A stretch of 64,000 nucleotides of DNA. Source: an uncultured Anaerolineales bacterium. GTDB taxonomy: Bacteria > Chloroflexota > Anaerolineae > Anaerolineales > Villigracilaceae. The stretch is taken from NCBI GenBank assembly GCA_937960595.1, contig CALGPL010000011.1, positions 23,194 to 87,193 of the forward strand. Direction: 5' to 3'. The notes beneath the pieces were generated by a model. That model was given only the letters and a program-made list of their open reading frames with translations. It made no database searches and had not been told where the DNA came from. Below are positions 26,646 through 43,225 of the stretch, piece by piece (the first letter of the stretch is position 1; the number at the start of each line of letters is the position of its first letter). The translations under genes were made by a program, and so were the position numbers.

Positions 26646-27668
26646 ATGGCATCTCGACCTCCGCTCACTCCTGAAATCCTGGTGCCAAGACTGGGGGAAT
26701 ATCTGGTTCAGGCCGGTCATATCACCGAAGAGGACCTGCAAAAGGCGCTGGAATATCAGAAAAAGAGCAGGTCTCCCGGACGGTATTTGCTGGGGCAGGC
26801 TTTGCTGGAACTCCAATTGATCGACCGTGAAACGCTCGATCGCGCCATTACCGAGCAGATCATCCGATTGCGGACGGCGCTGGAAGACGCCAATCGTTTT
26901 CTGGAGAAGCGCGTTCAGGAGCGGACGGCCGAGTTGCAGGAGGCGTTGCATAAACTCTCCGAACTCAGCCAGATCAAGGCCAATTTTGTTGCCAACGTTT
27001 CTCACGAACTGCGCACCCCGCTGACGCATATCAAAGGGTACATGGAACTCCTGGCGACAGAGGCGCTCGGGCCGTTGACCGCCGAGCAGAAAAACGCGCT
27101 GCAGGTCAGCCAGCGCGCCGCCTCCCGTCTGGAGAGTCTGATCGACAACTTGATTGTCTTCTCGTTGGCGGCGCGCGGCGAAATGAGCCTAAAACTGGGC
27201 CCGGTCAACCTCAACAAGGTGGCCGGCGATGTGATCAATTATTCCCGCGCCAAGGCGGCCGACCGCAATGTGGCTTTGCATGTGGAGATTCCGCCCGATT
27301 TACCGCTGGTTCAGGCGGACGAGCAGAAGATTTCGTGGGTCATCCTGCAACTCTTGGATAATGCCATCAAGTTCACGCCGCCTGGGGGGAAGGTGACGCT
27401 CTCGATCTTTCCAGAGACCACCGAACTGGTCGTTGTCTCGGTGGCCGATACCGGTATTGGCATTCCTGAGAATCGCCGCGACGAGATCTTCGAGCCGTTC
27501 CATCAATTGGATGGCTCGTCGACGCGCCGCTACAGCGGCACCGGGCTGGGGCTGGCGCTGGTCCGTGAGATTTTGGACGCGCATGGCTCGCTGATCGAGT
27601 TCGACTCGGTCGAGGGCCAGGGAACGACGTTCCGCTTCCCGCTGCTGGCGGTTTTTCCGCCAGACTGA
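26646..27668 (+). CDS. Histidine kinase with MshEN-like N-terminal domain
   Basis: N-terminus 'RLGEYLVQAGHITEEDLQKALEYQ' + 'LLGQALLELQLIDRETLDRAITEQ'; then coiled coil, 'ANVSHELRTPLTHIKGYMELL', 'GTGLGLALVREILDAHG'. Confidence 0.88.
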   Translation: MASRPPLTPEILVPRLGEYLVQAGHITEEDLQKALEYQKKSRSPGRYLLGQALLELQLIDRETLDRAITEQIIRLRTALEDANRFLEKRVQERTAELQEALHKLSELSQIKANFVANVSHELRTPLTHIKGYMELLATEALGPLTAEQKNALQVSQRAASRLESLIDNLIVFSLAARGEMSLKLGPVNLNKVAGDVINYSRAKAADRNVALHVEIPPDLPLVQADEQKISWVILQLLDNAIKFTPPGGKVTLSIFPETTELVVVSVADTGIGIPENRRDEIFEPFHQLDGSSTRRYSGTGLGLALVREILDAHGSLIEFDSVEGQGTTFRFPLLAVFPPD

Positions 27669-27678
27669 CAGGCGCATC

Positions 27679-28869
27679 ATGAGCAGCGAACAACTCGATT
27701 ATTTCACCACCCTCACGAGTACGGTTTCACGGGGAGAATGGAAATCTTCCCTGGATACGTTGTTCGTTGTTTTGCGCAAGCGCTTCCTTTTCGATAACCT
27801 GGCCATCTATCGCTCTGACGAAAAAGGCAGCCTGGCCGAGGTGGTGTATGCCCGCGCGGCCGGACGCGGCAAGAGCCGCGAGGCCGACGCCTCTTGGGGA
27901 GAGAATATTGCCACGCAGGTGATCTCGACCCGGCGGATCGTAATGCTGGCCCCTGAGCAGCCCTCGGAAGACCGCATCGCCATGCCGTATCTCCTCGGCC
28001 TGCCGCTTGACTTTGTCGAGGGAAAGGGAGTGCTGGTCTTTGTCCGTTTTGGCGGCCCTCCCTACTTGGATGAACAAATTCCCCTGGCGGCGCTGGCTGC
28101 CTCGTTGGCGGCGCGCATCCTGGAACGCCGCCAGGTCCAGGAGCATATCCATCAACTCGAACAGGCCCGCTACCGGGCCCAGTTGCAGGACGATTTCATC
28201 GCCACCATCTCGCATGATTTGCATACCCCGCTTGGCTTCATTAAGGGATACACTACTTCTCTCCTGCGTTCTGATACCAGTTGGGACGCGGCCACCCAGC
28301 GCGAGTTCCTGACCATCATTGACGAGGAGACCGATCACCTGATTGCCCTGATCGACCGCCTGCTCGATTCCTCCCGTCTGCAGACGGGCATGCTGACTAT
28401 GGATTTTCAGCCGGTCGCGCTCGAGAAACTGGTGCGGGATGTGGCTCTGCGGGTCCAGGGGCGCTCTCCGGGGTTTGAGGTGGTCTTCGATCTGGAAAAT
28501 TTGCCTACCATCCAGGGCGATAACGTCCGCCTGGGACAGGTCTTCGAGAATCTGTTGGACAACGCCGTCAAGTATGCCTCCCATTCGAGGGTGACGATCG
28601 GGGCGCGAAAGCGGGAACGTTCGGTGGTGTTGACGGTCGCCGACCAGGGGCCGGGCATCCCTTTCGAGCATCTGCCTTACATCTTCGAGCGTTTCTACCG
28701 AGTGCCGTCGGAGACGGGGCAGCGCGGCACCGGCCTGGGGCTTTTCATCTGCAGGCAAATCGTCCAGGCGCATCATGGCCGGATTACTGTTGAGACCGTT
28801 CCGGGCAAGGGAACAACCTTTCGGATCGAACTTCCGATCCGGCAAAACGAACAAGGAGGGCCGGCATGA
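27679..28869 (+). CDS. Soluble sensor histidine kinase (GAF-like N-terminus)
   Basis: 'ATISHDLHTPLGFIKGYTTSLL', 'LLDNAVKYASHS', 'GQRGTGLGLFICRQIVQAHHG'. Confidence 0.88.
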   Translation: MSSEQLDYFTTLTSTVSRGEWKSSLDTLFVVLRKRFLFDNLAIYRSDEKGSLAEVVYARAAGRGKSREADASWGENIATQVISTRRIVMLAPEQPSEDRIAMPYLLGLPLDFVEGKGVLVFVRFGGPPYLDEQIPLAALAASLAARILERRQVQEHIHQLEQARYRAQLQDDFIATISHDLHTPLGFIKGYTTSLLRSDTSWDAATQREFLTIIDEETDHLIALIDRLLDSSRLQTGMLTMDFQPVALEKLVRDVALRVQGRSPGFEVVFDLENLPTIQGDNVRLGQVFENLLDNAVKYASHSRVTIGARKRERSVVLTVADQGPGIPFEHLPYIFERFYRVPSETGQRGTGLGLFICRQIVQAHHGRITVETVPGKGTTFRIELPIRQNEQGGPA

Positions 28870-29558
28870 CCACTCGTATTTTGGTGGTGGATGACGAACC
28901 GCGTTATCTGCGCCTTCTGGAGGCCAATCTGGTCACCGAGGGGTACGAAGTCATTTCCGCCTCCGACGGAGCCGAGGCGCTGGAGATTTTTTCCTCCAGA
29001 CCGACCGACCTGATCCTGCTCGACATCATGCTGCCCGGCATGGACGGTTTCACCGTCTGTCAGCGCATTCGCCAGTTCTCGAGCGTGCCGATCATCATGC
29101 TGACGGCCAAAGGCGAGGAACAGGATCGGGTGCGCGGCCTGGACGTGGGTGCCGATGACTATCTGGTCAAGCCGTTCTCGGTGATGGAACTGCTGGCGCG
29201 CGTCCGGGCGGTGCTGCGCCGGGCGCAGGTGACGGAGGTCGGGCAGGACCGCTTCTTTACCCATGGCGACCTGCGTATTGACTTTGCCCGCGCCGAAGTC
29301 TGGCTGGGCGACCAACCGGTGTATTTGTCTGCCACCGAATACCGCTTGCTGTTACAATTCTCTCACAATATCGGCAAGATCCTGACGGCCGAAGACTTGC
29401 TGACCAGCGTCTGGGGGCCGGAATATCGGGAGGACAAAGAGATTCTGTGGGTCACCATTGCCCGCCTGCGCCAGAAAGTCGAGCCGGACCCCCATACGCC
29501 CCGTCACATCGTCACCCGCTCGGGGCTGGGCTATTTGATGCCGCCGCTGGAGGAATGA
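28866..29558 (+). CDS. OmpR-family response regulator
   Basis: ATGA overlap with kinase; 'ILVVDDEPRYLRLL', 'LILLDIMLPGMDGFTVCQRIR', 'GADDYLVKPFS', winged-helix C-terminus 'LRQKVEPDPHTPRHIVTRSGLGYLMPP'. Confidence 0.95.
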   Translation: MTTRILVVDDEPRYLRLLEANLVTEGYEVISASDGAEALEIFSSRPTDLILLDIMLPGMDGFTVCQRIRQFSSVPIIMLTAKGEEQDRVRGLDVGADDYLVKPFSVMELLARVRAVLRRAQVTEVGQDRFFTHGDLRIDFARAEVWLGDQPVYLSATEYRLLLQFSHNIGKILTAEDLLTSVWGPEYREDKEILWVTIARLRQKVEPDPHTPRHIVTRSGLGYLMPPLEE

Positions 29559-29578: not shown

Positions 29579-30736
29579 ATGGAAAATGAAGTTCTGAGCG
29601 TTCTCATCATCGATCAAGACGCCGCCAGCCGCAATTATCTCTCGGTCATGCTGCGCAAAGCCGGCTACGCGGTCCTGACGGCCGCCTCGGCTCGGGAGGG
29701 CCTGATCTCCGTCTGGAAGGATTTGCCCTCTCTGGCCATCTTCGACCCGGCCTTGAGCGACATGCCGGCGACCGAGATGGTGCGGCGCCTGCGTCAGGAC
29801 CGGCGGACGGAAAACCTGCCGCTCGTGGTCCTGAGCAGCCAGGAAAACGTTGACGAGATGAGCGCTCTCCTCTCGGCCGGTTGCAACGAGTATCTGGTCA
29901 AGTCCAGCCAGGCGGTGACCAAACTGCTCGAACTCATCCCGCGTTTGCTTCACCAGCAAAGGGATGTCAAAAAGGGCGGGATGTTGATCGTTTTCCTGAG
30001 CGCCAAGGGCGGGACGGGCACCTCCTCGCTGTGCGCCAATGTGGCCATGTGCCTGGGCAAGAACAAACCGGAGACCTCGGTGGCGGTGGTGGACATGGTC
30101 TTGCCGATTGGCTCGATTGCCCACATCGTCGGCTATCGCGAGCGGCTCAATTTGATCAGCGTGGCCATGCAGAATCCGGACCAGATTACGGCCCGCTATT
30201 TCAAAGAAAATCTGCCCAAGATCAACGAATGGTATTTCCGACTTCTGGCCGGTTCGCCCGATCCGGACGTCGCCAACCAGTTGGCCGGCGACCGGCTGAA
30301 GCCGGTAGTCGCTGCCCTGCAGGAGGCGTTCGATTTCGTTTTCGTTGACCTGGGCCGTTCGCTCTCGCGCCTCAGCCTGCCGGTCATCCTGCATGCCGAT
30401 GTGCTGGCGTTGGTGCTCAGCACCGAAGTCGCCTCCGTGACCCTCACCCAGACGGTCTGGTCTTACCTGCAAGCACAAGGGGTGGACCCGCGCCGGGTGT
30501 ATGCCATCCTGAACCGCGCCGTCGGCCTGGAGGGGCTGACCAAGGCGGAGGCGGAACAGATGCTCAATTTGCCGATTCAATATGCCATGCCTTATATGGG
30601 CGGCAATTTCTCGTTGGCCAACAACCGCCACGAGCCGGTGGCCGTCAAGTTCCCGCTCGACGCGGCCGCGCTGACCCTCAATCAGATGGCCGATCAAATC
30701 GCCGACCTGGCCCAGCGGCTGCGTCACGGCGGCTGA
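29579..30736 (+). CDS. Response-regulator receiver fused to CpaE/TadZ-like MinD-type protein with atypical Walker A
   Basis: Receiver 'VLIIDQDAASRNYL...AIFDPALSD...VVLSSQ...LVKSS'; then 'MLIVFLSAKGGTGTSSLCANVAMCLGK', 'FDFVFVDLGRSLS'. Confidence 0.85.
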   Translation: MENEVLSVLIIDQDAASRNYLSVMLRKAGYAVLTAASAREGLISVWKDLPSLAIFDPALSDMPATEMVRRLRQDRRTENLPLVVLSSQENVDEMSALLSAGCNEYLVKSSQAVTKLLELIPRLLHQQRDVKKGGMLIVFLSAKGGTGTSSLCANVAMCLGKNKPETSVAVVDMVLPIGSIAHIVGYRERLNLISVAMQNPDQITARYFKENLPKINEWYFRLLAGSPDPDVANQLAGDRLKPVVAALQEAFDFVFVDLGRSLSRLSLPVILHADVLALVLSTEVASVTLTQTVWSYLQAQGVDPRRVYAILNRAVGLEGLTKAEAEQMLNLPIQYAMPYMGGNFSLANNRHEPVAVKFPLDAAALTLNQMADQIADLAQRLRHGG

Positions 30737-30797: not shown

Positions 30798-31475
30798 ATG
30801 AGCATAAAAGATCAGATCAACATCCGAACCCGTAAACTGGGCGTGCTGATTCGGGATGCCCGTCTGGCCACCCGCAAGACCCTCAGCGAGTGCGCCCGGG
30901 CGATTGGCGTCACCCCCGGCATTCTGCGCGCCTGGGAGGAAGGCCGCCGGGCGCCGTCGCTGCCCGAATTGGAAGTGCTGGCTTATTTCCTGGATTTGCC
31001 GATCCGCCATTTTTGGGGCAAGGAGGCGATGTCGGACAATCCGCCGCCCACCGAGGCGCTCAACCTGCCGATCCTGGTGGGAGTGCGTCAGCGCATGATC
31101 GGCGCCCTGTTGCGTCAGGAGCGCGAGAAAGCCAGTCTCTCTCTGCGGGCGCTCTCCGAGCAGACCGGGCTTTCCACGGCGCGCCTCAAGGCCTACGAAT
31201 TGGGCGAGCGCCCCATCCCCTTGCCGGACCTGGAGGTGATCATGAACGTCCTGGGCGGGCAGGTCGAAACTCTCTTCGATCAGACCGGCCCGATTGGTCT
31301 GTGGATGATCCAGCAGCGCGCCATTCAGGATTTCCTGCAATTGCCCGCCGATCTGCAGGCCTTTGTTTGCAAGCCGGTCAATCGTCCCTACCTGGAACTG
31401 GCGCTCAAACTCAGCACCCTTTCGACCGACCGTCTCCGTTCGGTGGCGGAGGGTCTGCTCGACATTACTTTCTGA
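30798..31475 (+). CDS. Protein with two tandem XRE-type HTH domains
   Basis: 'LGVLIRDARLATRKTLSECARAIGVTPGILRAWEEGRRAPSLPELEVLAYFL' and 'IGALLRQEREKASLSLRALSEQTGLSTARLKAYELGERPIPLPDLEVIMNVLG'. Confidence 0.88.
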   Translation: MSIKDQINIRTRKLGVLIRDARLATRKTLSECARAIGVTPGILRAWEEGRRAPSLPELEVLAYFLDLPIRHFWGKEAMSDNPPPTEALNLPILVGVRQRMIGALLRQEREKASLSLRALSEQTGLSTARLKAYELGERPIPLPDLEVIMNVLGGQVETLFDQTGPIGLWMIQQRAIQDFLQLPADLQAFVCKPVNRPYLELALKLSTLSTDRLRSVAEGLLDITF

Positions 31476-32011: not shown

Positions 32012-32868
32012 GGCCTGATTTCCAAATCCGCCCGGCGGTTTTTCCCGACCAGCGGCGGTTGCTCGGCTTGTTGAATCATGCTCCGCTGATTCACCGTCAT
32101 CTGGACTGGCGCAAGCCGCTCGACTGGCTTGGTATCCCGCCCTTCTTGGTGCTGGAAAAGGACGGCCGCATCCTTTCGGCGCTGGCCTGTCCCCCCGATC
32201 CGCCGGGGATTGCCTGGTTGCGTCTGTTTCTCGCCGCTGGCGAGTTGCCGGCGGAAGAGGGCTGGTTCCCGTTGTGGGAGGCCGCCCGGGCAGAACTGGC
32301 TGGACAGGGCGATTTCCTGGTAGCAGCCATTGCCCTGAGTCAGCGGTTTGTGCAACTGCTGGAGGCCAGCCGGTTCGAGTTGCGTCAGCACATTGTCATG
32401 CTCGAACGGGAGGCGCAACCGCAGGCCGATTATTTCCTGCCGGCGGGCGTCTCGCTGCGGCTGATGATGCCCTACGATTTGCCCGGCGTGGCCGAGGTGG
32501 ACGCGGCGGCCTTTGAGTTGCTCTGGCAGAATAGCCTGGTCGCCCTCGAGCGAGCCTATCCTCAGGCGGTCGTGGCGACGGTGGCGGAGCAGGATGGCCG
32601 CCTGGTGGGCTATCAGATCAGCACGCCCAACCCGCTGGGGGCGCACCTGGCCCGTCTGGCGGTCCGGCCCGAGATGCAGGGCCAGGGGCTGGGATTCGCC
32701 CTGATCGCCGATCTCAGCCAGCGGCTGGCGCGCCGCCGCATCTATCGGTTGACCGTCAATACCCAGAGCGACAATGCCGCCTCGTTGAAATTGTATCAGC
32801 AGGTCGGCTTTCGTCTGACCGATGAACGTTACCCTGTGTATCTTTTTCGGGTCCGAGGAGGTTCGTGA
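32002..32868 (+). CDS. GNAT-family N-acetyltransferase
   Basis: 'ARLAVRPEMQGQGLGFALIADLSQRLARRRIYRLTVNTQSDNAASLKLYQQVGFRLT'. Confidence 0.88.
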   Translation: MALGPDFQIRPAVFPDQRRLLGLLNHAPLIHRHLDWRKPLDWLGIPPFLVLEKDGRILSALACPPDPPGIAWLRLFLAAGELPAEEGWFPLWEAARAELAGQGDFLVAAIALSQRFVQLLEASRFELRQHIVMLEREAQPQADYFLPAGVSLRLMMPYDLPGVAEVDAAAFELLWQNSLVALERAYPQAVVATVAEQDGRLVGYQISTPNPLGAHLARLAVRPEMQGQGLGFALIADLSQRLARRRIYRLTVNTQSDNAASLKLYQQVGFRLTDERYPVYLFRVRGGS

Positions 32869-33488
32869 TGGTAAGTACAGATGAGGCCGTCATTGTTAAC
32901 GCTCTCGTGCGGCAGGCGCTGGTGGCTGCCCAGGAAGTGATGGGCGAGAACGGACTGCACGCCGTCTTGCGCAGCAGCGGGCTGGAACGTTTCATCGGCA
33001 ATCTGCCGCCCGACAACTTGGAACCGGGAATCAAGACCGTCGAATATGCCCGCCTGAACGAGGCCATCGAGGCTTTCTACGGCCGCGGTGGCCGTGGCAT
33101 GCTGCGCCGGATCGGAAAAGCCTCCTTTCAGTACGGCGTGCGCGAACAGGGCGCGCTGCTCGGCCTGGCCGGCGCGGCGCTCAAACTGATGCCTCAGCAT
33201 GGGCGCATCAAATTCATCCTCAATGCCCTGGTGAATGCCCTCAAGAAGACCAATTCCCAGGTGGAGGCCTGGGTCGAGGACGAAGGCGGCAAACTGGCCT
33301 ACGTCGAGTCGACCTGCGCCATCTGCAAGGGCCGCACCAGCGATGCGCCGATTTGCCATCTCTACGTCGGTTCGATCGGCGAAGCGGTCCGCTGGGCCAC
33401 CGACCAGGAATATGAAATCATCGAGACGCATTGCATCGCCAAAGGCGACCCCTATTGCCGTTTTGAAGTAGGAGAGGCCAAGACATGA
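32865..33488 (+). CDS. V4R (4-vinyl reductase/hydrocarbon-binding) domain protein 1
   Basis: C-terminal 'CAICKGRTSDAPICHLYVGSIGEAVRWATDQEYEIIETHCIAKGDPYCRFEV'. Confidence 0.72.
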   Translation: MMVSTDEAVIVNALVRQALVAAQEVMGENGLHAVLRSSGLERFIGNLPPDNLEPGIKTVEYARLNEAIEAFYGRGGRGMLRRIGKASFQYGVREQGALLGLAGAALKLMPQHGRIKFILNALVNALKKTNSQVEAWVEDEGGKLAYVESTCAICKGRTSDAPICHLYVGSIGEAVRWATDQEYEIIETHCIAKGDPYCRFEVGEAKT

Positions 33489-34105
33489 CTGCCGAGGGTG
33501 TAGCACGCATCTTATCGGTGAATCTCCTGGCGCATTTCGTAGAGGTTCTTCGCCAGGAGGTGGGGGCAGACAAGTGGCCGCTCATCCTGGCGGGCGTGAG
33601 TCTTTCGCCTGCCATGTTCGAACCAGAGAACCTGTCTTTTCTGGATGGGGCCGGCGCGGCAGACCTGTTCGCCCGCGCCCAACAGGCGCTGCGTCTCTTC
33701 TATGGACGCGGGGCGCGCGGCCTATTGATTCGCGTCGGCTTCGGCCTTTGGGAGCGGCTGAATTCTTCTGCCTCTTTCGTGGAAAGAACCGAACTGCGCG
33801 TGTTGCGCAGCCTGCCGGCTCCGGCCCGGCCGCGGCGGGCGCTGGAGGTCCTGGCGGCGCGTTTGCGCGAGGGCGGCGGGACAATTTCGGTCCATTCCCT
33901 GGATATGGATTTGCTGCTGGCCGATTTTTCCAGCCCCACCACTCTCGGTCAGGCCGAGCAGACGCCGATTTGCTACGTGACGGTGGGTCTGATTCAGGGG
34001 GCGCTGGTCTGGGCGACGGGGCGCGAGATGGATGTCGAGGAAGTCGGTTGCCGGGCGATGGGTCAACCGGCCTGTGAATTCAAAATCAAAACAGGAGGTT
34101 CATGA
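33485..34105 (+). CDS. V4R domain protein 2 (paralogue)
   Basis: 'FYGRGARGLLIRVG' shared with copy 1 ('FYGRGGRGMLRRIG'); C-terminal 'ICYVTVGLIQGALVWATGREMDVEEVGCRAMGQPACEFKI'. Confidence 0.68.
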   Translation: MTAEGVARILSVNLLAHFVEVLRQEVGADKWPLILAGVSLSPAMFEPENLSFLDGAGAADLFARAQQALRLFYGRGARGLLIRVGFGLWERLNSSASFVERTELRVLRSLPAPARPRRALEVLAARLREGGGTISVHSLDMDLLLADFSSPTTLGQAEQTPICYVTVGLIQGALVWATGREMDVEEVGCRAMGQPACEFKIKTGGS

Positions 34106-37165: not shown

Positions 37166-39928
37166 ATGAATAAAAAGCCTTCCTTTGCCTGGCTGTTTCA
37201 TCTTCCCACTCTATTGATTGCCTCGATCGCTGTGGCCATGCTGGTGCTGACGCCCGTTTGGGCGGTTCGATATTATCGAACTCCTTTCCTGGGGATGCTG
37301 CTCGAGCCGAACGGGGTGGTCAGCAAGATTTCGGGGGAGGGTTGGCCGGCCCGTCAGGCGGGAGCCGAATGGCCGGACCGTTTGATCAGCATCAACGGTC
37401 ATCTCCTGGCATTTGACGACCGGCCCGATCACTGGCTGGCCGAAGGTGACTACCGGCCGGTGGAACTGGTCTTCGAGCAGCACAACATGGGGCGCTATTA
37501 CCTGATAGTGACGCCCATTCCCATGCCGCGCAGCAATTTCATCGAGTTGTTTGTCGTTCCCTATCTGGTTGGGTTGATTTTCCAGGGGATCGGCATTTGG
37601 GCGTACAGTCTGCGCCGCGATCTGCGTTCCAGCCGGGCGCTGCTGGTGTTCACCTCGGCGGTCAGCATCACGACGACCACATTCTTCGATATGAATACCA
37701 CCCATCATGTGGTGACCATGTGGTCGGTCAGTCTTCCGATCGCCGCGACGGCACTGATCTACCTGGCGCTGGTGTTCCCGCGCGAAGTCTATCTGGTGCA
37801 GCGCTGGCCGTGGGCGCGTTTTCTCCCGTGGTTCCTCTGCCTGGGCATTGTCATCCCGGCCTGGCGGGAAGTGACGGCGCCCTCCTCGGCGCTGGCGTAC
37901 ATCACGGTCTGGCAGGCCAGTTATGCCTACATGGCGCTGGGCATCTCGACCTTTCTGTTCATGCTCGTCTGGCACATCCTGCGCAGCGATTCGGCCATTG
38001 TGCGTCAGCAGAGCCGCGTCATCGTCTTCGGCGCGGCGCTGGCCTTCGCGCCGATGATGATCTTCTACCTCCTGCCGACCGCTTTCGGCAGCAGCCCGCA
38101 GGAATTTCGGGCGGCAATTTATTTTCCTCTCCTCATCTTGCTGCCGCTCTCCATCACCTACGCCATCCTGCGTTACCGCCTGCTCGATGTGGATCGCGTC
38201 TTGGGAAAGGCGCTCACCTATGCCATGACGACCGCGGCGGCCCTGGCTGCCTTCTATGGTCTGATTGCCGTCCTCTCCTATGCCTTGCGGCGCAATGTGC
38301 AGGCCGACAATCCCTGGCTGATTGCGCTCTATCTGCTCTTGCTGGTCTTTGGGCTGATGCCGCTGCGCAATCTTGTCCAGCGGTTGATCGACCGCCTGTT
38401 CTACCGTTCACCGGCGGATTATCAGCGTGTCCTCAACAACCTGGCTGCCGGCCTCGTCATCACCCCCGACATCGAGCGGACCGTTGAACTCCTGCAGAAG
38501 CAGATCGGCTTGGCGCTGGCGCCGGAGGATTTCGTCATTTACCTCTATGACGATGACCGGGCGCTCTACCTTGCCAGTTCGCGCCTGGAGCGGGAGTGGC
38601 CTTCGTTCCAGACCGATGACCCCCTTGTCCGTCTGCTGCGCCAGGCCAAAGCCGCGCTTTGGTTTCCTCCCGAGGCGGATCTGCCCCCCGATCTGGCCGT
38701 CTCCGACGACTTTCGCCGCCTGCGCTGCCGAACTTTTGTGCCGCTGTGTTACGAAGGCAGCCTGATCGGTTTCATGGCTTTGGGAATGCGCCGCTCCGGT
38801 GATCCTTACAGTCAGGACGATTTGAACTTCCTGACGACGGTCGGCGGGCAATCCACGCTGGCGCTCGAAAACGCCCGCCTGTTTGCCAACCTGCGCCGCA
38901 CCCTCGACCAGACCCTCGAAATGAAGAATTTGATGGACGACATCTTTGCCTCCATCGCCACCGGCGTCATCACGACCGACATCCAGCGTCAGGTGACGCT
39001 CTTCAACCGGGCTGCCGAGCGTATTCTGGGCGTTTCTATCGATCAGGTGATCGGCAAGCGGCTGCCGCAAATCTGCGAGGAACTCGAACAGGCAGCCAGC
39101 AGTGCCGTCGAGCGCGGCGAAGTCACCCTCGGCCGCGACGTGGCCGCCCGCCTGCCCTCGCGCGGTGACCTCTATCTGCGCCTGTCCTGTTCTCCGCTGC
39201 GGGACGCTTACTTGGGCACCAAAGGCGCCACGATTGTCCTGGAGGATCTTACCGAGCGTCGTCGGCTGGAGGCCGAACAGGAGCGCATCCGCCAGACCTT
39301 TGGCCGGGTCGTGGCGCCGCGCGTCCGCGACCGTTTGCTCTCCGATCCCAGCCACCTGCGCCTCGACGGCACGCGCCAACAGGTAACCGTCCTTTTCGCC
39401 GATCTGAAAGGGTTCACCGGTTTCAGCGAGGTCCATGATCCCGAACTGATCTTCCGGGTGCTGAACGATTACCTCTCCCTGGCGGCACAGGCCATTCTCG
39501 AGGAGGAAGGCACGCTGGATAAGTTCATGGGTGATGCAGTCATGGCGCTCTGGAATGTGCCCGATCCTCAGGAGGATCATGCCCTGCGCGCCGTGCGCGC
39601 TGCCTTCGGAATCATGGAACGCGCCCGCCAGGCGCATCTGCGTCTGAGGGACCCTTCTCACCATTTGCTGTTCCGCATCGGCGTGACCACCGGGGAGGCC
39701 ATGGTGGGCAACGTCGGCACGCGCGAACTGTTCAATTACACCGCGATTGGCGACATCGTCAACCTGGCGCAGCGGCTGGAGACGACGGCGCGGCCGGGCC
39801 AGATCCTCATCGATCATGCCACCTTTGCGCTGGCCGGAAACCACGTGATCGCCGCGCCCATGGAACCGGTCCAGGTGCGGGGCCGCACCCAGCCGGTGAT
39901 TGTCTATGCCCTGGAACGATTGAAATAG
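37166..39928 (+). CDS. Multi-domain class III adenylate/guanylate cyclase (PDZ-like, multi-TM, GAF, PAS, CHD)
   Basis: 'EPNGVVSKISGEGWPARQAGAEWPDRLISINGHLL' PDZ-like; C-terminal 'VTVLFADLKGFTGFSEVHDPELIFRVLNDYLSLAAQAILEEEGTLDKFMGDAVMALWNVPDPQEDHALRAVRAA' and 'IGVTTGEAMVGNVGTRELFNYTAIGDIVNLAQRLE'. Confidence 0.9.
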   Translation: MNKKPSFAWLFHLPTLLIASIAVAMLVLTPVWAVRYYRTPFLGMLLEPNGVVSKISGEGWPARQAGAEWPDRLISINGHLLAFDDRPDHWLAEGDYRPVELVFEQHNMGRYYLIVTPIPMPRSNFIELFVVPYLVGLIFQGIGIWAYSLRRDLRSSRALLVFTSAVSITTTTFFDMNTTHHVVTMWSVSLPIAATALIYLALVFPREVYLVQRWPWARFLPWFLCLGIVIPAWREVTAPSSALAYITVWQASYAYMALGISTFLFMLVWHILRSDSAIVRQQSRVIVFGAALAFAPMMIFYLLPTAFGSSPQEFRAAIYFPLLILLPLSITYAILRYRLLDVDRVLGKALTYAMTTAAALAAFYGLIAVLSYALRRNVQADNPWLIALYLLLLVFGLMPLRNLVQRLIDRLFYRSPADYQRVLNNLAAGLVITPDIERTVELLQKQIGLALAPEDFVIYLYDDDRALYLASSRLEREWPSFQTDDPLVRLLRQAKAALWFPPEADLPPDLAVSDDFRRLRCRTFVPLCYEGSLIGFMALGMRRSGDPYSQDDLNFLTTVGGQSTLALENARLFANLRRTLDQTLEMKNLMDDIFASIATGVITTDIQRQVTLFNRAAERILGVSIDQVIGKRLPQICEELEQAASSAVERGEVTLGRDVAARLPSRGDLYLRLSCSPLRDAYLGTKGATIVLEDLTERRRLEAEQERIRQTFGRVVAPRVRDRLLSDPSHLRLDGTRQQVTVLFADLKGFTGFSEVHDPELIFRVLNDYLSLAAQAILEEEGTLDKFMGDAVMALWNVPDPQEDHALRAVRAAFGIMERARQAHLRLRDPSHHLLFRIGVTTGEAMVGNVGTRELFNYTAIGDIVNLAQRLETTARPGQILIDHATFALAGNHVIAAPMEPVQVRGRTQPVIVYALERLK

Positions 39929-41091: not shown

Positions 41092-41107
41092 GCCCATCCC
41101 CTTGGCG

Positions 41108-43225
41108 ATGAACCGATCCCGCGCCGCGCGGCGAGTCTCTGCTTTCTCGATCCTGATTCTGGTCTGCGTCAGTATTCTGTCGTACGTGGTCCTGATCCAG
41201 CCGTGGTCATTGCGCCAGGATCAAGCGCCGATTATGGAGAACGAGGTCGCCGTTCAGGATTTGCGCGCCCCTTACGATTTTCAGTACATCAGCGAGGTGC
41301 GCACCGAGCAGGCCCGTCTGGCGGCGGAGCGGGCTGTCCAGCCGGTTTACGCGCCGCCCGATCCGCGTCTGGCCCGCCAACAGTTCGACCTGCTCGATTC
41401 GGCGTTGAGGAATGTGACCCTCATTCGGGCCGACCAGAATTTGAGCATCGAAGAAAAGAAGGCGGCGCTGGAGACCATCGAGGCGCTCGATTTGCGCCCC
41501 GAGTCGGTGGACTTGCTCCTGCGCCTGTCGACGACGCGCTGGGAGAAGGTGCGCACGACCGCCCTCGCCGTCCTGGAACAAGCCATGCGCAGTCCGATTC
41601 GCAGCGAGGAGTTGGAGATCGTTCGCCAGGGACTGCCGGTGCTCGTCAGCCCCAGCCTCGGCCTGACGCAGACCGAGATCGATCTGGTCGTCGAACTGGC
41701 CGCGCCGCTGATCGTCCCGAACAGTTTCTACAGCCCCGAATTGACCGAAGCGGCCCGTCGGGCGGCCCGCCAGGCCGTCGAGCCGGTCGTTCAATCCTAT
41801 AAGCAGGGTCAGACGATCGTTTCGAGCGGCGAGATTGTCACCGCCGCCCATTATGAAGCCCTGGTGGAATGCGGTCTGGTCACCTCGGCCGAGCCGACCA
41901 AACGCTATGCCGGGGCGGCTGCGGTGGTGGCGGCAGCGGTGCTCTTCACCGTTCTCTACTTCATGCGTCGTCGAACGCCGCCGCTCCAAGATTTGCGCGG
42001 CCTGCTCCTGTTTTCGGCCGTCCTGCTGGTCTTTTTGGTGGGTGCGCGGGTGATCTTGCCCAATCGCAGCGTCTTGCCGTACCTTTACCCCGTCCCGGCC
42101 TTCGGCCTGCTCGTCTCTGTCCTCTTCGGCATGGAGAGCGGCATGGTCTTCAGCCTGCTGATGAGTATGCTGGTGGCCTATGGCATGCCCGATGACATGT
42201 GGCTGCTGCCCTACTATCTCTTGAGCAGCCTGTGCGGCGTGCTGGCGCTTGGTCGTGCCCGCCGCCTGGGGCAATTCCTCTACGCCACCGCCGCGATCGC
42301 CGGCTCTGGCATGGTCTTGATCATGGCGTACCGCTATCCGTTTACCGACATCGACTGGGTGGGCATCCTGACCTTGCTCGGCGCGGCGATTTTTTGCGGG
42401 GTGGCTTCTGCCAGCCTGACCCTCCCGCTCCAGTACATCCTTTCCCAGTTTCTAGGCTTGACCACTGCTCTTCAACTGCTGGAGGTCTCGCGGCCCGATT
42501 CGCCGCTGCTCAAATATTTCTTGCAGCGCGCCCCCGGCACCTACCAGCACAGTCTGCAGGTGGCCAATCTGGCCGAGCAGGCGGCCGAACGAATCGGAGC
42601 CGACGGCCTGTTGACGCGCGTGGCGGCTCTCTTCCATGATGTCGGCAAGGCGGCCAACCCGCTCTTCTTCGTCGAGAACCAGCCTCCCGATCGGATCGAT
42701 TCGCACGATGAGATGAACCCGGTCGAGGCCGCTGCTCACATCATCCGCCATGTGGAAGACGGCCTCAAACTGGCCCGCAAATATCGTCTGCCGCGCCGCC
42801 TGCTCGATTTCATTTCCGAGCACCATGGGACGCTGGTGGCCCGTTATCAATACAATCGGGCGGTCGAAGCGGCTGGCGGTGACGCCTCCAAAGTGGACAT
42901 TGACCGCTTCCGCTATCCCGGCCCGACGCCGCGCTCGCGCGAGACGGCCATCCTGATGCTGGCCGACGGAGTCGAGGCGCGGGCCCGCGCCGAGCGTCCG
43001 CAAAGCGACGATGAAATGTACGCCATGGTGCGCAACGTCATTGCCAGCGTCCAGAAAGACGGCCAACTCGACCATGCGCCGCTCACCCAGAAAGACATGT
43101 GGGATATTACCGAGTCCTTTGTCGCCACCCTGCGGGTCGCCTACCATCCTCGCCTCGAATATCCCAAGGACCAGCCTGCTGCTGCCGAGACGCCAACCCG
43201 GGCCCACTCCAGGAGCCGCAAATGA
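41108..43225 (+). CDS. 7TM-HD family phosphohydrolase (PgpH/YqfF-like)
   Basis: 'SPLLKYFLQRAPGTYQHSLQVANLAEQAAERIGADGLLTRVAALFHDVGKAANPLFFVENQ' HD domain after a multi-TM region. Confidence 0.93.
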   Translation: MNRSRAARRVSAFSILILVCVSILSYVVLIQPWSLRQDQAPIMENEVAVQDLRAPYDFQYISEVRTEQARLAAERAVQPVYAPPDPRLARQQFDLLDSALRNVTLIRADQNLSIEEKKAALETIEALDLRPESVDLLLRLSTTRWEKVRTTALAVLEQAMRSPIRSEELEIVRQGLPVLVSPSLGLTQTEIDLVVELAAPLIVPNSFYSPELTEAARRAARQAVEPVVQSYKQGQTIVSSGEIVTAAHYEALVECGLVTSAEPTKRYAGAAAVVAAAVLFTVLYFMRRRTPPLQDLRGLLLFSAVLLVFLVGARVILPNRSVLPYLYPVPAFGLLVSVLFGMESGMVFSLLMSMLVAYGMPDDMWLLPYYLLSSLCGVLALGRARRLGQFLYATAAIAGSGMVLIMAYRYPFTDIDWVGILTLLGAAIFCGVASASLTLPLQYILSQFLGLTTALQLLEVSRPDSPLLKYFLQRAPGTYQHSLQVANLAEQAAERIGADGLLTRVAALFHDVGKAANPLFFVENQPPDRIDSHDEMNPVEAAAHIIRHVEDGLKLARKYRLPRRLLDFISEHHGTLVARYQYNRAVEAAGGDASKVDIDRFRYPGPTPRSRETAILMLADGVEARARAERPQSDDEMYAMVRNVIASVQKDGQLDHAPLTQKDMWDITESFVATLRVAYHPRLEYPKDQPAAAETPTRAHSRSRK

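Follow-up and report, generated by a model that had tools for sequence, protein, structure and literature searches.

MshEN domains, which correspond to Pfam PF05157 and are also termed GSPII domains, sit on the ATPases MshE, PilB and PilF. Further fusions of the domain, with REC, HD-GYP, CheA, CheX, cyclase and Ser/Thr kinase partners, are named in the main text of Wang et al. 2016 (PMC5013675). Histidine kinases controlled by c-di-GMP are also already known: the passages of PMC10519070 devoted to them cover CckA, ShkA, SgmT and PdtaS, with a pseudo-receiver as the module in ShkA, a GGDEF domain in SgmT, a GAF domain in PdtaS and none named for CckA.

Here, we analysed a window of 64,000 nucleotides (the whole stretch of DNA under study) and found on a kinase the two 24-residue motifs, the four-helix bundle (in a predicted model) and the Arg/Lys-Leu-Gly, Leu, Leu and Gln residues of the MshEN/GSPII domains of MshE, PilB and PilF. 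Unlike in these proteins, a kinase domain takes the place of the ATPase, the MshEN_C subdomain is absent, and the spacer between the motifs comprises 9 residues in the window copy and 10 in most orthologues, compared with 5 in MshE. As in the fusions of Wang et al. 2016 (PMC5013675), MshEN appears away from secretion ATPases, as a sensor module that can be detached; a HisKA sensor kinase, however, is missing from the list in their main text. Among the papers covered by our literature search, which for Wang et al. means the main text, none has both MshEN and HisKA. We predict that the kinase resembles CckA, ShkA, SgmT and PdtaS in being under direct c-di-GMP control, here through MshEN_N. If c-di-GMP is bound, the kinase would be a case in which MshEN feeds directly into a two-component sensor kinase.

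Tandem motifs, profile and predicted fold of the input domain

The kinase gene (26646..27668, + strand, as are all features of the cluster whose coordinates are given below) starts with ATG and encodes 340 amino acids. An earlier note on this DNA had read the open reading frame as a histidine kinase; we recovered the same coordinates, and Pfam places HisKA at residues 111-173 (E 2e-17; HisKA/DHp domain, 26976..27164) and HATPase_c at residues 225-332 (E 2e-27; 27318..27641), with no further domain predicted. The H-box histidine, the N and G boxes and the HATPase fold identify a HisKA sensor histidine kinase: the N, G1, F and G2 boxes are readable, and the phosphoacceptor His120 (27003-27005) is conserved in 146 of 146 orthologues. 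The kinase is a soluble protein. Pfam and NCBIfam scans of the protein named the kinase core alone and left the N-terminus without a name.

Two 24-residue repeats had been reported ahead of the core, and their letters are as quoted: motif 1 spans residues 15-38 (RLGEYLVQAGHITEEDLQKALEYQ; 26688..26759) and motif 2 residues 48-71 (LLGQALLELQLIDRETLDRAITEQ; 26787..26858). Scoring 24-residue segments at the 11 constrained positions of the MshEN pattern, we obtained 10/11 and 9/11 for the two motifs and 6 for the next best segment of the kinase. Among 20,000 shuffles of the kinase, a score of at least 10 occurred in one, and a score of 10 together with a second of at least 8 in none. Both tandem motifs carry the key residues of MshEN_N (R/K/L-L-G, L, L, Q), with small deviations in motif 2, where Ile or Val replaces the second key Leu in the kinase family and where Gln57 stands in place of the turn Gly in the window copy, although 57 of 146 orthologues have Gly at this position, more than have any other residue.

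A single-sequence phmmer search against PDB sequences aligned the kinase with all three GSPII domains of Thermus PilF (E 2e-9). Homology to MshEN_N is likewise found by a profile of 16 family members, which matched V. cholerae MshE in its c-di-GMP complex (5HTL, E 5.7e-9), PilB (6e-8) and PilF (1.5e-16). The full Pfam MshEN model, PF05157, stayed below its cut-off for the kinase N-terminus, which we therefore class as an MshEN_N module and not as a full MshEN domain. Thus, the MshEN similarity on which the earlier note had made its proposal depend is detected by the family profile and missed by the plain Pfam model.

The AlphaFold model of the kinase, built on 59 orthologues, shows helices at residues 16-22, 28-40, 49-55 and 61-137, and the isolated N-terminal domain was modelled (AF2) with a pLDDT of 87. 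When this domain model was compared with the PDB by Foldseek, ranks 1-11 were all MshE, PilF GSPII-B or PilB, and ranks 1-10 were c-di-GMP-bound structures (probability 0.99-1.00, rmsd 1.2-1.8 Å over about 58 residues, with one outlier at 3.3). The E-values are weak to modest (0.02-0.15) because the domain is tiny, with about 60 residues. The predicted model superposes on MshE and PilF as a compact four-helix bundle.

Could the repeats instead be a generic helical hairpin, such as DUF4388/PATAN-like helices, unrelated to MshEN? Weak DUF4388 matches do appear in 15 of the 16 family members; on the kinase, however, the match lies under the cut-off and covers about 25 residues, whereas the MshE, PilF and PilB matches are stronger and span both motifs. 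We rejected the hairpin, which is largely refuted and in our judgement hardly credible. Since sequence profile, predicted fold and the conservation of ligand-contact residues agree, they support the identification of the kinase N-terminus as an MshEN_N (GSPII) domain on a HisKA kinase, in line with the sensor module first proposed for it.

Conservation of the putative c-di-GMP site

The key residues of MshE are R9, L10, G11, L25, L29 and Q32, followed by R38, L39, G40, L54, L58 and Q61, according to the sections of Wang et al. 2016 (PMC5013675) on this site; they also describe that mutation of G11 abrogates binding, that the G40I variant shows no ligand stabilisation and that MshEN_N alone binds c-di-GMP at 0.35 uM. 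Among 146 orthologues of the kinase, the matching positions of motif 1 hold R/K in 146 (position 15, 140 R and 6 K), L in 130 (M in 10), G in 146 (G17), L in 145 (L31), L in 145 (L35) and Q in 140 (Q38, 96%). Those of motif 2 hold L in 116 with R in 12, L in 123, G in 146 (G50), L in 133 (L64), V/I in 144 and Q in 136 (Q71, 93%). Both glycines that are critical in MshE, G11 and G40, are thus invariant at the corresponding G17 and G50.

The main systematic departure from the MshE site is the Leu that opens motif 2 in place of Arg, and the earlier note had cautioned that it may alter binding. This caution is answered by Thermus PilF GSPII-B, which like the kinase opens its motif 2 with a natural Leu (L196) and binds c-di-GMP with a KD of 6 nM; L196R brings the KD up to 23 nM and K167L brings it down to 2 nM, and the authors widened the consensus to (R/K/L)LG (PMC11731258). 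By analogy, the Leu of the kinase appears compatible with c-di-GMP binding and is perhaps favourable.

A further constraint concerns Pro14 (26685..26687), the residue preceding motif 1, which does not vary among the 59 aligned orthologues and lies in the break of helix 1 in both the full-length and the isolated N-domain model. Helix 1 of MshE is broken, as an unbroken helix would clash with the ligand (site description in PMC5013675), and in the non-binding PilF GSPII-A helix 1 is elongated and obstructs the site (PMC12002112). By comparison with these two, Pro14 would keep the putative site open.

Non-binding members of the family do exist, namely XpsE (as described in PMC5013675) and PilF GSPII-A (PMC12002112), and the kinase might similarly have kept the MshEN_N fold as a protein-protein or dimer-capping module after loss of c-di-GMP binding. 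Partner docking could be the role of the conserved N-terminus, and the missing turn Gly in motif 2 of the window copy would fit such a loss. We nevertheless consider it unlikely: the contacts that XpsE has lost, including G11, G40, L29, L54 and Q61 in the account of PMC5013675, are kept at 91-100% across the 146 orthologues, a structural role of the two conserved Gln is not obvious, and the helix break at Pro14 speaks against a blocking extension of helix 1. As a small and soluble module, the domain lends itself readily to a test of the binding claim.

Signalling helix and gene neighbourhood

The coiled coil that the earlier note had placed after the repeats can be made more precise. In the model, the signalling helix (residues 72-110, 26859..26975) belongs to one long helix (61-137) that begins as helix 4 of the MshEN bundle and continues unbroken into DHp helix 1, with no extra globular domain in between.

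The kinase gene stands in a conserved cluster, where genes for an amidohydrolase, the kinase, the GAF kinase, the regulator and the receiver-ParA protein follow one another; three of the junctions are gaps (7, 10 and 20 bp) and one is a 4-bp overlap. The next gene encodes a second kinase (GAF-HisKA-HATPase, 27679..28869) and overlaps by 4 bp with that of an OmpR/PhoB-type response regulator (28866..29558), which is followed by a receiver plus ParA/MinD-type ATPase (CpaE-like, 29579..30736) and a double XRE-type HTH protein (30798..31475), which is often the closest of the conserved partners in distant families. Counting downstream neighbours on the same strand at 117 loci, we found the regulator in at least 88, the GAF kinase in at least 86, DUF6812 in at least 56, the receiver-ParA protein in at least 51, the double XRE protein in at least 38 and a T2SSE (CpaF-like) ATPase in at least 32, all of them lower bounds because of contig ends. 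Pilus-type genes (CpaF, CpaE-like) accordingly belong to the cluster in many relatives. At some loci the regulator directly follows the kinase and the GAF kinase is missing, which favours the regulator as the partner and likely output of the kinase.

From the domain identity, predicted fold, site conservation, continuous helix, gene cluster and phyletic pattern, all obtained by computation, we infer how binding, sign of regulation, partner and output may be connected. c-di-GMP would sit between motif 1 and motif 2 of the four-helix bundle that forms the input of the soluble kinase, with each motif holding one guanine, and would tighten the bundle. As helix 4 extends without interruption into the coiled coil and from there into DHp helix 1, the dimer stem would rotate or change its register in response, which would alter the autophosphorylation of His120 (or the phosphatase activity there). 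From His120, the phosphoryl group would pass to the OmpR-type regulator (28866-29558), a target presumably shared with the adjacent GAF kinase; the receiver of the CpaE-like protein is perhaps a second recipient. A plausible output is surface attachment or pilus-type functions. We consider it likely that the protein is a c-di-GMP-responsive kinase with MshEN_N input that signals through the helix to His120 and the neighbouring regulator.

The own genome holds one T2SSE ATPase above the cut-off, on a different contig and in a run resembling a Tad locus. A probable Tad pilus locus of this genome (L217, G000:C61) has genes for a CpaF-like ATPase and for a CpaE-like protein that bears a receiver. 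Elsewhere in the window, a GAF-PAS-adenylate/guanylate cyclase protein of 920 aa is encoded at 37166-39928, and two overlapping tandem genes (32865-33488 and 33485-34105) each end in a C-terminal V4R domain.

Distribution and co-occurrence with GGDEF

How widely is this domain pair distributed? The earlier note had suggested looking for it in other genomes, and we found the kinase in 240 of 330 Anaerolineales genomes (E 1e-30); its front half was matched in 111 of 121 relatives (E 1e-15 or better). Almost all named records with the kinase are MAGs of Anaerolineales, Anaerolineae or Chloroflexi, and across a sample of the phylum strong matches over the full length were confined to Anaerolineales. 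Beyond the order, the domain pairs with TPR-like, FHA-like and receiver-like partners, as labelled from their sequences.

Of the 330 genomes, 284 contain GGDEF domains, and 44 of these 284 are without the kinase; therefore all 240 kinase genomes have GGDEF, and the kinase is absent from each of the 46 genomes that lack GGDEF (Fisher p 2e-31, kinship ignored). The co-absence may reflect general loss, because GGDEF-less genomes are poor in HisKA kinases (3-10 per genome in those tested vs 10-30 in the kinase-positive genomes sampled) and mostly lack the neighbouring XRE gene. As these losses confound the comparison and the listed GGDEF-less genomes fall in three families, we take the co-occurrence as support and not as proof.

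The domain might instead sense another nucleotide, for example c-di-AMP or cGAMP. All 31 genomes of the order that were tested have a c-di-AMP cyclase domain, and the window encodes a 7TMR-HD protein (41102-43225). Proteins of this kind are known as c-di-AMP phosphodiesterases (PgpH). However, all 20 genomes tested that lack both GGDEF and the kinase retain the cyclase domain, and the distribution of the kinase is therefore not tied to c-di-AMP. The binding data described in PMC5013675 give weak binding of cGAMP by MshEN and no detectable binding of c-di-AMP. We regard a different ligand as very unlikely.

For c-di-GMP, 8 GGDEF matches were counted in the own genome, with the GG[DE]EF motif intact in at least 5, and a PF05157 search of this genome gave nothing above the cut-off (54 genomes were also scanned). 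Most Anaerolineales genomes sampled have GGDEF proteins and no Pfam-recognisable MshEN domain. If c-di-GMP is bound, the kinase would be a near order-wide receptor, and from sequence and modelling it probably lets c-di-GMP control a gene-switching relay in most members of Anaerolineales. A wider reading, to which we give even weight for and against, is an order-wide class of c-di-GMP receptors in Anaerolineales, joined by related Chloroflexota with similar fusions, in which a stand-alone MshEN_N-HisKA kinase would turn the c-di-GMP level into an OmpR-type transcriptional output tied to pilus-type genes and would replace the MshEN of the pilus ATPase.

Several variant architectures were observed. 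Outside the order, a 750-aa PAS-HisKA kinase (L189) has an MshEN-like module in mid-protein and is probably an independent MshEN-kinase fusion, and in other Chloroflexota proteins of about 250-270 aa (L185, L186, L188) have a repeat-like N-terminus followed by two MshEN-like modules. In distant families (L055:5172-6377, L061:1138-2301, L066:4971-6116, L043:95-1243), a CxxC...CxxC zinc-ribbon-like segment precedes MshEN_N, with sub-threshold Pfam matches in the two such kinases scanned. In two paralogues near an OmpR-type regulator gene (L077:3845-5947, L078:4317-6542), MshEN_N and a linker are followed by two GAF domains, and the kinase domain was not found in either. At one further locus (L010, G017:C170:14491-15027), a second frame of 187 aa directly upstream of the full copy matches the front half of the kinase.
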